DNA from: Rhodospirillaceae bacterium
Lineage (GTDB): Bacteria; Pseudomonadota; Alphaproteobacteria; SHVP01
DNA: 64,000 nt
Direction of reading: 5' to 3'
NCBI GenBank assembly: GCA_002722055.1
Contig: PBKD01000006.1
Span: 108,233-172,232, forward strand
Position numbers and translations under genes: made by a program. Within the stretch, counting starts at the first letter, position 1, and each line of letters starts with the position of its first letter. Below, in pieces: positions 7,791-62,540 of the stretch. The notes under the pieces are model-generated. The model made no database searches. It was not told the DNA's origin and saw only the letters and a program-made list of their open reading frames with translations.

Positions 7791-7859
7791 AAAGCCTCAC
7801 AAATAGAATATTAGAATTTATTATACTTGACTTAAAGTGTGTTTTTATTAAAGTTAAAA

Positions 7860-8020
7860 ATAACGGTTTTTTTGAAAAATTAAAAGGGAACACGGTAAAT
7901 AATATTCCGTGGCTGCCCCCGCAACTGTATTTGGTTAGCTTTATTTCGTATTTGGCCACTGGGAAACTGGGAAGGCTAGATTTAAAGTGATAACCCATAA
8001 GCCAGGAGACCTGCCGTATA
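7860..8020 (+). promoter_or_regulatory. Cobalamin riboswitch
   Basis: Conserved blocks in order: AAAGGGAACACGGT, GTGGCTGCCCCCGCAACTGTA (B12 box core), GCCACTGGGAAACTGGGAAGG, AGCCAGGAGACCTGCC; upstream of TonB receptor and btu genes. Outer boundaries approximate. Confidence 0.95.
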
Positions 8021-8055
8021 AGTTGCCCAACTAATGAACGGGGTGTTTCATGAGT

Positions 8056-57603: not shown

Positions 57604-58263
57604 TCAGCTTTTGCCACTATTATTAATATTATATTTAGCTTTTCTCTCGATATACGCTTTTTTAACAGCAGCCCTTTTTTTGTGAGCTTCAATTGACCTA
57701 ACTTTTTTCCAGATTTTATCTACTTTAGACCTGTACTTAAAACTATATTTCGGATTAGATGAGTGATACTTTTCAATTGAACGATGCCAAGATTTCTCAT
57801 TTTTATACAATTTTTTCAAAAATTTTGTTGCATAAAGTATATTTGATCTTGGATCAAATGCTTCTTCTAATGTTTTAAATGCGTTAGGGTGGTATTTCAA
57901 ATTTATCTGCATGCATCCTACATCTATATTACTTATATTCCTTAACTGAAGTCTTTTAACAGCTCTTATTGCATTTTCTTTTGTTTGAAAATAATGTGAC
58001 CACTTCCCTGCAGTTACCGTCCATGGCCAGGTAAAACTTTCCTTTTTTGAATTATCCCATCTACCAGTTTCTTTTAGCGAAATAGCTTTAAGTAAATGAG
58101 GAGGTATACCCATAGAAGTTTCGTGTTCTTTAAAATAATTATCACAAATATCTGAAATATATAGATTTTTCTTTTGCTGTTGAGCATTTGTATAGTTAGA
58201 AAGAAACAATGATAATATAAAGATGATAAATAAAATTAATCTGAAACGTTCTAAAGCAAACAT
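57604..58263 (-). CDS. Lytic transglycosylase (SLT domain) protein
   Basis: Signal peptide; IPPHLLKAISLKETGRW; NIDVGCMQINLKYHPNAFKTLEEAFDPRSNILYATKFLKKLY. Confidence 0.9.
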   Translation of the reverse strand: MFALERFRLILFIIFILSLFLSNYTNAQQQKKNLYISDICDNYFKEHETSMGIPPHLLKAISLKETGRWDNSKKESFTWPWTVTAGKWSHYFQTKENAIRAVKRLQLRNISNIDVGCMQINLKYHPNAFKTLEEAFDPRSNILYATKFLKKLYKNEKSWHRSIEKYHSSNPKYSFKYRSKVDKIWKKVRSIEAHKKRAAVKKAYIERKAKYNINNSGKS

Positions 58264-58388: not shown

Positions 58389-58418
58389 TTGTCTTAGTTT
58401 TTTTTGCTACTATATATA
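58389..58418 (+). promoter_or_regulatory. Candidate sigma70-type promoter for the intergenic sRNA
   Basis: TTGTCT (58389-58394) spaced 16 or 18 bp from overlapping TATATA boxes (58411-58416 / 58413-58418). Confidence 0.45.
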
Positions 58419-58421
58419 GAG

Positions 58422-58514
58422 CTGTAACATCAAACACACACTTGGTGTTACATACCCTTTCTGGGTAATTCCTCCCTAAACTTGGGCCCATTATTAAAAA
58501 GTGGGCCCTTTTTT
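58422..58514 (+). ncRNA. Candidate trans-acting small RNA (about 93 nt)
   Basis: 11-bp hairpin TGTAACATCAA/TTGGTGTTACA (58423-58452), hairpin TACCC/GGGTA (58453-58467), unpaired ATTCCTCCCTAAACTT, then strong terminator; plus-strand signals between two minus-strand genes. Confidence 0.6.
58484..58514 (+). terminator. Rho-independent terminator
   Basis: GGGCCCA-TTATTAAAAAG-TGGGCCC followed by TTTTTT on the plus strand. Confidence 0.88.
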
Positions 58515-58517
58515 AAT

Positions 58518-59423
58518 CTATTCGGCTGCTAGTTGTGAATTTTGATTTTTAAAAAAATCTAAAGTGTTAATTTCACATAAAGCTCTAACTAATTCATGTA
58601 ATGTTTGCTTTAATATTATGAAGCTTTCGTTTAGTTCCATTGTAATTTCATTCATATATAAACTTCTATTAATTTCTATTTGGACTGCGTGGATCTTGTT
58701 AATTGGTCTACCATAGTTCTGAGTTATAAAACCTCCTGAATATGGTTTATTTCTAAGGACACTATAACCCTTTTGGTCAAGAAATTTTTCAATAAAATAA
58801 ATAAGATTGGGGTCGGCACTTTTGCCACAATTGTCTCCTAAAACAAAATCTGGTAATATTTGATTTCTGGAGTTATACGCACCTTGAGAAATGCTCGGCA
58901 TAGAATGACAATCAATTAAAATTGAAAAACCAAATTTAAATTTATTTTTTATAAGCAATTGTTTAAGGTTCATATGAAAAGGAAAATAAAACTTTTCTAT
59001 TCTTTTTTCAGCTTCAAACCAAGATAATTTGTTAGTATATATTTCTGCCCCATTTGAAACAACTCTGGGGATAGTTCCTAAACCTAAAGCAACCTTTTTA
59101 GAGGATGAGTTAATGAACTCCGGAAGCGTTTCATTAAACATCCCTGGGTCTAATTCATACGGCTCTCTATTTAAATCAAGGTATGATCTAGGAAAATTTG
59201 CTTTTATTACACTCGAACCATTTTTTATGGCTAGATTAAAAAAATTATCTAGAAAGAAATCCTCTGAGCTTCTTAAGGTTCTATAATCAAGTTTACTAGA
59301 CTTAACAAAGTCTGGGCAATAATCTCTTCCACTATGAGGTAATGAAAAAACACATGCAGATTTTAGTAGTTCAGGTTCCAAAACAGAAATTAATTTTGAA
59401 TTTTGTATATTTCTTCTATTCAT
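58518..59423 (-). CDS. N-formylglutamate amidohydrolase family protein
   Basis: ACVFSLPHSGRDYCPDF; LIDCHSMPSISQG; HAVQIEINRSLYM. Confidence 0.9.
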   Translation of the reverse strand: MNRRNIQNSKLISVLEPELLKSACVFSLPHSGRDYCPDFVKSSKLDYRTLRSSEDFFLDNFFNLAIKNGSSVIKANFPRSYLDLNREPYELDPGMFNETLPEFINSSSKKVALGLGTIPRVVSNGAEIYTNKLSWFEAEKRIEKFYFPFHMNLKQLLIKNKFKFGFSILIDCHSMPSISQGAYNSRNQILPDFVLGDNCGKSADPNLIYFIEKFLDQKGYSVLRNKPYSGGFITQNYGRPINKIHAVQIEINRSLYMNEITMELNESFIILKQTLHELVRALCEINTLDFFKNQNSQLAAE

Positions 59424-59510: not shown

Positions 59511-59585
59511 GGGCGCGTAGCTCAGCGGGAGAGCACTACGTTGACATCGTAGGGGTCGCTGGTTCAATCCCAGCCGTGCCCACCA
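59511..59585 (+). tRNA. tRNA-Val (anticodon GAC), CCA encoded; probable island attachment site
   Basis: GGGCGCGTAGCTCAGCGGGAGAGCACTACGTTGACATCGTAGGGGTCGCTGGTTCAATCCCAGCCGTGCCCACCA; anticodon loop TTGACAT. Confidence 0.96.
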
Positions 59586-59632
59586 TAGAAACCTTAGGGT
59601 TTATTCCATAACACTTTAATGTATGTCTGTGT

Positions 59633-59652
59633 TTGTCACAATGTTGTCACAA
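59633..59652 (+). repeat. Direct repeat TTGTCACAA x2, 11-bp period, upstream of integrase
   Basis: TTGTCACAA at 59633-59641 and 59644-59652. Confidence 0.6.
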
Positions 59653-59668
59653 CAAAAGGACGAATAGC

Positions 59669-60649
59669 ATGGCGAGCATACGAAAACGTCACAATAACTA
59701 TCAGGTGCAAATCCGAAGGAAACACGCCTTACCCTTCAGTAAAACATTTGCTACCAAGAAAGAAGCAACGTCTTGGATCAAAGCAATCAAAGAACACTCC
59801 CAACACGATACTGCAATCCCTGTATTGCAACCCTCGTTGACTTTGCAGGACTTAATTGAACGCTACTTAAAAGAAGTCGTTGTGCATAAACGCAGTTGCA
59901 CCATTGAACAGTATATTTTACGGGCGTGTTTACGGTAGGCATGGGTTAGATGTTCGGTGCATTCCTTACGGTCTTCCACTTTTGCCCAGTATCGCGATGA
60001 ACGGTTGCGATCGGTTAAGCCTGCTACAATTAGTCGGGAGTTAGGATTACTCAGTCATGTGTTTACAATTGCAATGACAGAATGGAATCTTCCTCTTACT
60101 GATAATCCTTTACAGAATGTTCGCCGTCCCACAATTTGTAATACAAGGGATAGACGGTTAACTAAACAAGAAGAAACAATACTCTTTCAAAAAGTGCAAA
60201 CTTGTTCTGTAGAATACATGTATCCCATTCTTGTCCTTGCTTTAGAAACTGCTATGCGCCAAGGAGAAATTTTATCAATGCAATTGAGTCATGTGGATTG
60301 GAACACGCATGTTGTGACTCTTCCTTTAACAAAAAATGGAACCATGCGACGCGTGCCTTTATCACACAAAGCTATAACGATGTTGCGTGAGTATCATAAG
60401 GGGCATACAGATTCATTAGCGGTGTTTACCGTCACGCGTAATGCATTTAAAAAAACATGGCAACGATTAATGAAACGTTGTGGTTTTAAGGATTTACGGT
60501 TTCATGATTTACGCCATGAAGCTACCAGTCGATTGTTTGAAAAGGGCTTAAACGTGATGGAAGTTGCTAGTATTACTGGTCATAAAGATGTGCGTATGCT
60601 TTTTCGGTATACTCATCCAAGGGCAGAAACTCTAGCACAAAAACTCTAA
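59669..60649 (+). pseudogene. Phage-type tyrosine integrase interrupted by an in-frame TAG
   Basis: N-terminal part MASIRKRHNNYQVQIRRKHALPFSKTFATKKEA and C-terminal part with ETAMRQGEILSMQ, HDLRHEATSRLFEKGL, ITGHKDVRMLFRYTH lie in the same frame, separated by TAG at 59936-59938. Confidence 0.85.
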
Positions 60650-60731: not shown

Positions 60732-62540
60732 ATGACAGGCAGAATAATTTCTCCTTCAATAGAAGATTTTTCAAAGATTACTCCTCCATTAAATGAAGGT
60801 GAAGAAAAGGTATTCCATTTATTTAATAATAATCTAGACAAAAATTGGGAGATATATACTCAACCTTTCTTTAATGGTAAAAGACCTGATTTTATTTTGT
60901 TAAATCCTAATGTAGGGATAATTATTGTCGAAGTTAAGGACTGGGAACTTAACACGTTAAAAGATCAACAATCACATAACAAACATAATGTGCCGGTTAA
61001 TTATTTAAGAAATTTAAAAGAAAATATATTTGATATGTATTGCCCTACGTTAGCACAAAAAGGCCTTAATGCATTTGCAGCAATTGAAACAGTTTTATTT
61101 TATCCCAAAATTATTGAAGATGATTTAAAAAATATATATTCAAAAATTGCTGAAGAACCACGTGCATATATTTTTAGTAAAGACGATTTAGATTCCAATA
61201 ATTTAGATAAATTAAAGACACATCAATATAAATCAAGTAAATTAATGGCAATTGAAGATGCTGATTATTTGCGGTCATGGTTAGTTGAACCTGAACATTC
61301 AATAGAGCAAAGAACTACAATAAAATTCGACCGTCATCAAAAAGAACTTATAGAAGCCCAAAATTTAAGACGGCGTGTAAGGGGTTCTGCTGGTTCAGGA
61401 AAATCGTTGGTTTTGGTAGCGCGGGCATGTAGATTAGCATCAAAAGGAAAAAATGTTCTTATCGTTCATTTTAATAATGCGCTAAATAGTTATTTAAGAG
61501 ATCTGTCCACTGTTATTGATAGAAAAATAAAGAACAAAATAGAATTTTATCCATTATTTCAAAAGTTCAAGGACATTCTTCTAGAAAATAATTTAGGTGA
61601 TAAGTATGACGAAACTTGGGCAAAACATAAGGTTGACCAAGAATATACAGACACTACTCTAGACACTCCTCTAAATGAGATTGCCAAATTACTTATTAAT
61701 AATTCAGATTATTTGCCAAAACTTTATGATGCAATATTAATTGACGAAGGACAAAATTTTGACCCTTTATGGTGTCAAGCATTAGAAGGTTTATTAAAAC
61801 ATGATGGAGAGATGTTTTTGGCAGGAGATCATACACAGGATATTTATGAAAAGAATATCTTATGGAATAATTATGAGAAAAAGATTAATTCACAGTCAAT
61901 CATCTCTAGAGGGTGGAAAGGTTTTAGAGGTCGTTGGTTTGAGTTAAAAAAATCATACAGGTTAGCGCCTGAGATTGCTGATTTGTGTCAGGTATTTACC
62001 AAAGATTTTTTATTTGAAGATCCCATGCTTACTATCAGTCAGCAAACAGAAATTCCATACCGTTCTGATTTGAAATGGGTTCAAGTGAATAAAGAAGCTA
62101 TTATTCAATATGCTTTTGATGAATTATTTAATTTACATAAAAAATATGAATCTAAAGCTGTATCTATGACTGATATATATGCCTTATGCCAGTACAGACG
62201 AATAGGAATAGAATTAAGCAATAAACTAGAAGAGAAAAATATTAAAACATCAAATACATTTGATGATAATGGATATAAAGAAAGAAAGAAAAAGTATTAT
62301 TTTATGAAAGGTAGTGAAAGAATAAAATTAACAACTTTCCAAAGTATCCAAGGAAGAGAGATTAAGGCAGCAATTGTTATAATCGAACATGCCTCAAGCC
62401 CAATAGATTTTAGAAATATTTACACCGCCCTTACCAGACTAAAGAAAGATGAAGAAGAAGTAAGCAAATTAACAGTTGTTTGCTCAGAACAAAAATTAGA
62501 GTCATTTGGAAAAAAATGGCCTAAATTTGAAACTTATTGA
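60732..62540 (+). CDS. NERD nuclease-related domain fused to SF1 (UvrD-like) helicase
   Basis: NERD-like RPDFILLNPNVGIIIVEVKDW; Walker A VRGSAGSGKSLVLVARA; Walker B AILIDEGQNFDPLW; LTTFQSIQGREIKAAIVI; IYTALTRLKK. Confidence 0.88.
   Translation: MTGRIISPSIEDFSKITPPLNEGEEKVFHLFNNNLDKNWEIYTQPFFNGKRPDFILLNPNVGIIIVEVKDWELNTLKDQQSHNKHNVPVNYLRNLKENIFDMYCPTLAQKGLNAFAAIETVLFYPKIIEDDLKNIYSKIAEEPRAYIFSKDDLDSNNLDKLKTHQYKSSKLMAIEDADYLRSWLVEPEHSIEQRTTIKFDRHQKELIEAQNLRRRVRGSAGSGKSLVLVARACRLASKGKNVLIVHFNNALNSYLRDLSTVIDRKIKNKIEFYPLFQKFKDILLENNLGDKYDETWAKHKVDQEYTDTTLDTPLNEIAKLLINNSDYLPKLYDAILIDEGQNFDPLWCQALEGLLKHDGEMFLAGDHTQDIYEKNILWNNYEKKINSQSIISRGWKGFRGRWFELKKSYRLAPEIADLCQVFTKDFLFEDPMLTISQQTEIPYRSDLKWVQVNKEAIIQYAFDELFNLHKKYESKAVSMTDIYALCQYRRIGIELSNKLEEKNIKTSNTFDDNGYKERKKKYYFMKGSERIKLTTFQSIQGREIKAAIVIIEHASSPIDFRNIYTALTRLKKDEEEVSKLTVVCSEQKLESFGKKWPKFETY

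Follow-up and report, generated by a model that had tools for sequence, protein, structure and literature searches.

Introduction

The αr8 family of trans-acting small RNAs (sRNAs; RF00519) includes MmgR of Sinorhizobium meliloti and SisA–D of Caulobacter crescentus. In S. meliloti, MmgR limits PHB via PhaP1/2 (PMC7143759). The family carries a conserved 10-mer core, and in Caulobacter SisA the same 10-mer pairs upstream of start codons, many mRNAs being repressed with Hfq; the SisA-mRNA pairing has been proven through compensatory mutations (PMC12559287). Linkage to the gene for N-formylglutamate amidohydrolase (FGase) is the typical position of αr8 genes (PMC12559287). Two further groups are of interest for comparison. 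The AbcR RNAs are about 115–120 nt long and contain two CU-rich motifs (PMC7143759). SmrC9 of S. meliloti (αr9) has been experimentally detected and lies in the order SMc01933< smrC9< proS> (PMC2573895); no description of the function of αr9/SmrC9 was found in the literature that we searched.

Here we analyze a region for which an initial annotation, made from sequence alone, had proposed a candidate orphan sRNA with a layout resembling the ar14/suhB type. The features discussed below are listed in Table 1.

Table 1. Features of the sRNA locus, its flanking genes and the second locus upstream of proS
Feature	Position	Strand	Basis and remarks
sRNA of the αr8/MmgR/SisA family, predicted transcript	58422–58515	+	about 93 nt; RF00519 match and fold z −6.33
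Promoter of the sRNA, −10 element CTATAT	58410–58415	+	roughly 7 nt upstream of stem 1; in all 9 family genomes compared
Hairpin 1	58423–58452	+	11 bp (58423–58433/58442–58452), loop ACACACAC, one G-U; fold and covariation
Hairpin 2, UACCC-UUUCU-GGGUA, weak, precedes core	58453–58467	+	pairs 58453–58457/58463–58467; matches RF00519 consensus hairpin
αr8 10-mer core AUUCCUCCCU, anti-SD seed	58468–58477	+	sequence; family consensus UUUCCUCCCU
Single-stranded pairing region AUUCCUCCCUAAACUU	58468–58483	+	unpaired in MFE and centroid
Rho-independent terminator GGGCCCAUU...AGUGGGCCC-UUUUUU	58484–58514	+	terminator scan; aligns with RF00519 terminator stem
SLT-domain transglycosylase-like protein, divergent upstream gene	57604–58263	−	Pfam PF01464, E 6e-6
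FGase gene	58518–59423	−	Pfam PF05013, E 1.2e-63; convergent with sRNA
Candidate αr8 sponge RNA	G000:C5:23527–about 23655 (= L074:2030–2160)	−	antisense core and terminator; intergenic, upstream of proS

Results

The locus matches the αr8 family

The window (the whole stretch of DNA analyzed, 64,000 nucleotides) was searched with Rfam covariance models, as the initial annotation had proposed, and RF00519 (suhB, described as mmgR) was found above its gathering score. The match covers positions 58447–58523 over the full length of the model (1–77 of 77) with 50.6 bits, compared with a gathering score of 41; its E-value is 1.9e-7 when the window is searched and 1.5e-9 in a search of the genome. 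At the locus all other families stay below their Rfam thresholds, and the matches to Ref84, ncr1241, SorY and others, lying far under theirs, were rejected. The suggestion of a suhB-type anti-SD sRNA is thus confirmed by the score, and also by compensatory changes in relatives (see below). The ar14 (NfeR1) type can be dropped, as no ar14 match is present among the Rfam hits up to an E-value of 1 between 58300 and 58620.

RF00519 scores above the cut-off in nine of ten genomes from the GTDB family to which this genome belongs, and across the class it was found in 88 of the 190 genomes sampled. Among 14 control genomes only one exceeds the cut-off, and the strongest is Caulobacter. In the genome from which the window comes, the covariance-model search found no second RF00519 locus above the cut-off, and the remaining matches score at most 18 bits and are implausible as paralogs.

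The 10-mer core, unpaired and downstream of hairpin 2, is identical to the family consensus at nine of ten positions. The one difference is at its first base, which is A where the consensus has U; this change is common to both copies seen in the genus and is confined to this genus.

Every structural element described in the initial annotation, namely the 11-bp stem with one G-U, the TACCC/GGGTA hairpin, the unpaired tract and the strong terminator, was recovered in the sequence, the fold or the terminator scan. The minimum free energy (MFE) of the predicted RNA is −35.2 kcal/mol, compared with −17.9 ± 2.7 kcal/mol for 200 dinucleotide shuffles (z −6.33), none of which is equally stable. The terminator scan gave one site against 0.2 expected; its stem consists of nine pairs (58484–58492/58500–58508) followed by TTTTTT at 58509–58514.

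To follow the conservation of these elements, nine αr8 sequences from the GTDB family were aligned. In hairpin 1, five of the eight consensus pairs have undergone double compensatory changes that keep the pairing, the kind of substitution that the initial annotation had said should be sought among relatives. In hairpin 2 the five core pairs are invariant in the nine genomes, and two pairs are added in other genera. The base of the terminator is nearly invariant, and UUCCUCCCUAAACU is invariant in all nine genomes.

The initial annotation had placed the promoter at TTGTCT/TATATA. An E. coli-type promoter scan found no promoter at this site. Comparison of the promoter regions of nine family genomes revealed the conserved −10 element CTATAT just before stem 1, together with a weak −35 region that could not be assigned with confidence. 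The 5′ end of the sRNA (about 58422) was inferred by reference to the positions of the −10 element and of hairpin 1.

Based on the RF00519 score, the covariation, the invariant −10 element and the FGase neighbor, membership in αr8 is settled at the sequence level. Because the locus is a standard FGase-linked αr8 copy, the sRNA is not an orphan. We conclude that it very probably encodes an independently transcribed, trans-acting αr8 sRNA.

Proposed mode of action and candidate targets

In the mechanism that we propose, RNA polymerase would start near 58422 from the promoter with the −10 element CTATAT and end transcription at 58514, where the terminator lies. The 5′ end is probably steadied by hairpin 1, hairpin 2 would present the single-stranded seed UUCCUCCCUAAACUU, and Hfq probably binds at the terminator and its U tail. 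Pairing of the seed with Shine-Dalgarno regions (GGGAGG and similar) would block translation and leave the mRNA open to decay. Both the Hfq dependence and the anti-SD repression are inferred from Caulobacter SisA, an analogy that makes Hfq-assisted anti-Shine-Dalgarno pairing likely here. An hfq gene is present in the genome (106 bits).

We asked where in the genome such pairing could occur. The sequence GGGAGG is found 4–11 nt before an ATG at 55 sites, compared with 47 for the backward control; genome-wide target prediction is weak because the two frequencies are about the same. Eighteen of the 55 sites are at likely gene starts, and six of these 18 resemble components of ABC transporters, one of them a permease and the other five substrate-binding proteins. 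Strong Shine-Dalgarno sequences are expected in highly expressed genes, and we regard the ABC-transport share as a lead, not as evidence. Our guess is that the targets are transport and metabolic genes, including those for ABC substrate-binding proteins. Perfect-seed targets (AGGGAGGAA-N4-12-ATG) gave two matches, both apparently within coding sequence, and were rejected as candidates.

A second locus upstream of proS

A DNA search returned a weak additional match in the same genome and in both congeners. It lies in the intergenic region between proS and a gene across from it that we take to be DUF1467-like. On the proS strand the locus reads UUUCCUCCCUAAACUUGGGC and lacks a downstream terminator; the opposite (minus) strand reads GCCCAAGUUUAGGGAGGAA and continues into a hairpin and a strong terminator. 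Our best reading of this locus, tentatively held and derived from sequence comparison, is that it encodes a dedicated minus-strand sponge RNA in which GCCCAAGUUUAGGGAGGAA would pair with the αr8 seed and silence αr8. This reading adds to the explanation of the sRNA given above.

The proS-linked element is found in all ten genomes of the window's GTDB family, with a degenerate core in four. In five of them (G000, G002, G005, G008 and G009), 19–20 nt are perfectly antisense to the αr8 of the same genome. The same holds for G001 when judged against the αr8 of a congener; αr8 itself was not found in G001, an 83%-complete genome. In the remaining four (G003, G004, G006 and G007), about 17–20 pairs to αr8 can form, with wobbles, a mismatch or a bulge. 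Furthermore, an αr8 position that varies between genera (AAACU-U/C-GGG) is matched in the proS-linked element. A minus-strand terminator is located 78–105 nt downstream of the antisense core in 10 of 10 family genomes, and a convincing plus-strand terminator is absent in nine of the ten. Within the genus, a loop-enclosing stem (GGCUAGG/CCUAGUC) changes from G-C to A-U in G002, and both this stem and the hairpin GCGCUYGUUC contain G-U pairs that are possible only on the minus strand. These features are all consistent with a minus-strand RNA that pairs with αr8.

The position and strand relative to proS are also those of S. meliloti SmrC9. RF02343 (ar9) matches the candidate sponge strand with 27.5 bits, which is sub-threshold (gathering score 45). 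Across the class RF02343 gave three sub-threshold matches including this one; the other two contain no GGGAGG, have no proS neighbor and were set aside. A degenerate αr9 DNA pattern run over the genome contigs gave 33 chance-like matches, and among the nine inspected none was recognizable as αr9.

Several observations stand against the sponge. In a survey of proS-upstream regions from 107 genomes, the core was found in 19, every time on the proS strand; eight of these 19 carry at this site an ordinary αr8 paralog that ends in a plus-strand terminator of its own. The minus-strand terminator is also located behind the DUF1467-like gene, whose transcript it may end, and folding stability discriminates poorly between the minus and plus strands. 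Given that every core found lies on the proS strand and that ordinary αr8 paralogs occupy this position in eight other genomes, the second locus in the window's family could instead be what is left of an αr8 paralog, decayed and oriented like proS. The paralogs recur in several alphaproteobacterial families (G042, G047, G075, G105, G107, G125, G136 and G171). The proS-upstream element of G003 (L191) has a degenerate core, CCCCCCCUAAACUCAGGCC, and terminator-like hairpins on both strands; it is possibly an intermediate between an αr8 paralog and a sponge.

If the locus does encode a sponge, one way to bring these observations together is that an αr8 paralog once lay beside proS, that its antisense strand gave rise to the sponge, and that the sponge coevolves with the αr8 core, SmrC9/αr9 being perhaps its positional counterpart. 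We regard this history as speculative, and hold it with less confidence than the sponge itself.

Neighboring genes, the terminator and PHB

Both genes flanking the sRNA lie on the minus strand, as the initial annotation had stated and the open reading frame list confirms. The FGase gene and the sRNA are tail-to-tail, with the FGase stop codon 3 nt past the sRNA U tract. Given this distance, the terminator might serve the convergent FGase mRNA or be bidirectional, with no separate sRNA made, but we consider this highly improbable: the U run is on the plus strand, opposite to FGase, the upstream hairpins, seed and −10 element are conserved or covarying, and the covariance model of a known transcribed sRNA fits over its full length.

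Beyond the FGase gene, the interval 59511–60649 contains a tRNA-Val (GAC) and then a tyrosine-recombinase gene that is apparently interrupted, being split over two open reading frames (N-terminal part, 59633–59938; catalytic-domain part, 59957–60649). It is followed by a 602-residue protein (60732–62540) of NERD/helicase-type appearance. The arrangement suggests a tRNA-integrated island starting right after the FGase gene. Elsewhere in the window, a cobalamin riboswitch (RF00174, 111 bits) is located at 7847–8032 on the plus strand.

The sRNA belongs to the family of S. meliloti MmgR, raising the question whether it acts chiefly via PHB granule formation (phasins), as MmgR does. Searches with PhaC_N and Pfam Phasin_2, both positive in Caulobacter, gave no match in this genome, which is 98.96% complete. 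Since neither a PhaC nor a Phasin_2 protein was found, PHB control by αr8 is unlikely here; a role chiefly through PHB is already largely refuted, and we give it very little weight.

Discussion

Taken alone, the sRNA is hardly surprising, as it adds a well-supported member to a known family at the family's usual location. More interesting are its candidate partner RNA and the lack of PHB genes, on which the function that gave the family its name depends. The analysis extends αr8 to a little-studied lineage without phaC or a recognizable phasin, and because such a lineage carries αr8, the core function of the family cannot be PHB control alone. What is new is a family-wide conserved, proS-adjacent locus that looks like an antisense αr8 sponge; no report of an αr8 sponge outside Caulobacter was found in the open-licence literature. 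Should the element beside proS prove to be a sponge, a pairing of sRNA and sponge known only in Caulobacter would be a circuit found more widely in alphaproteobacteria. Such a finding would, in addition, point to a simple way for sponges to originate, with the strand opposite a duplicated sRNA gene becoming transcribed, and would provide a possible role for αr9/SmrC9 that can be tested.

Compared with MmgR of S. meliloti (77 nt) and the RF00519 model, the sRNA has the same three stem-loops, the CCUCCC core after a weak hairpin, and the terminator. It differs in the A that begins the 10-mer, and its host has neither PhaC nor Phasin_2, so that the PHB role published for MmgR cannot simply be carried over. 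With SisA of C. crescentus, for which anti-SD-type repression through Hfq is proven, it shares the family, the FGase neighbor and the seed, whereas Caulobacter has four siblings (SisA–D) and this genome one copy above threshold. AbcR1 and AbcR2 (αr15) are likewise anti-SD, Hfq-type sRNAs partly similar to suhB; the sRNA described here, however, has one motif, and families besides RF00519 are all under threshold at its locus.

The second locus resembles αr9/SmrC9 of S. meliloti in its place and strand relative to proS and in the RF02343 match, although that match remains under the gathering score. Its other proposed counterpart is CrfA, the Caulobacter sponge of SisA–D, to which it is likened from CrfA's description. 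In common with CrfA, the second locus has a G/A-rich complement of the αr8 core, a terminator and a predicted stem-loop around the pairing site; its complementarity is longer, reaching the αr8 terminator arm.
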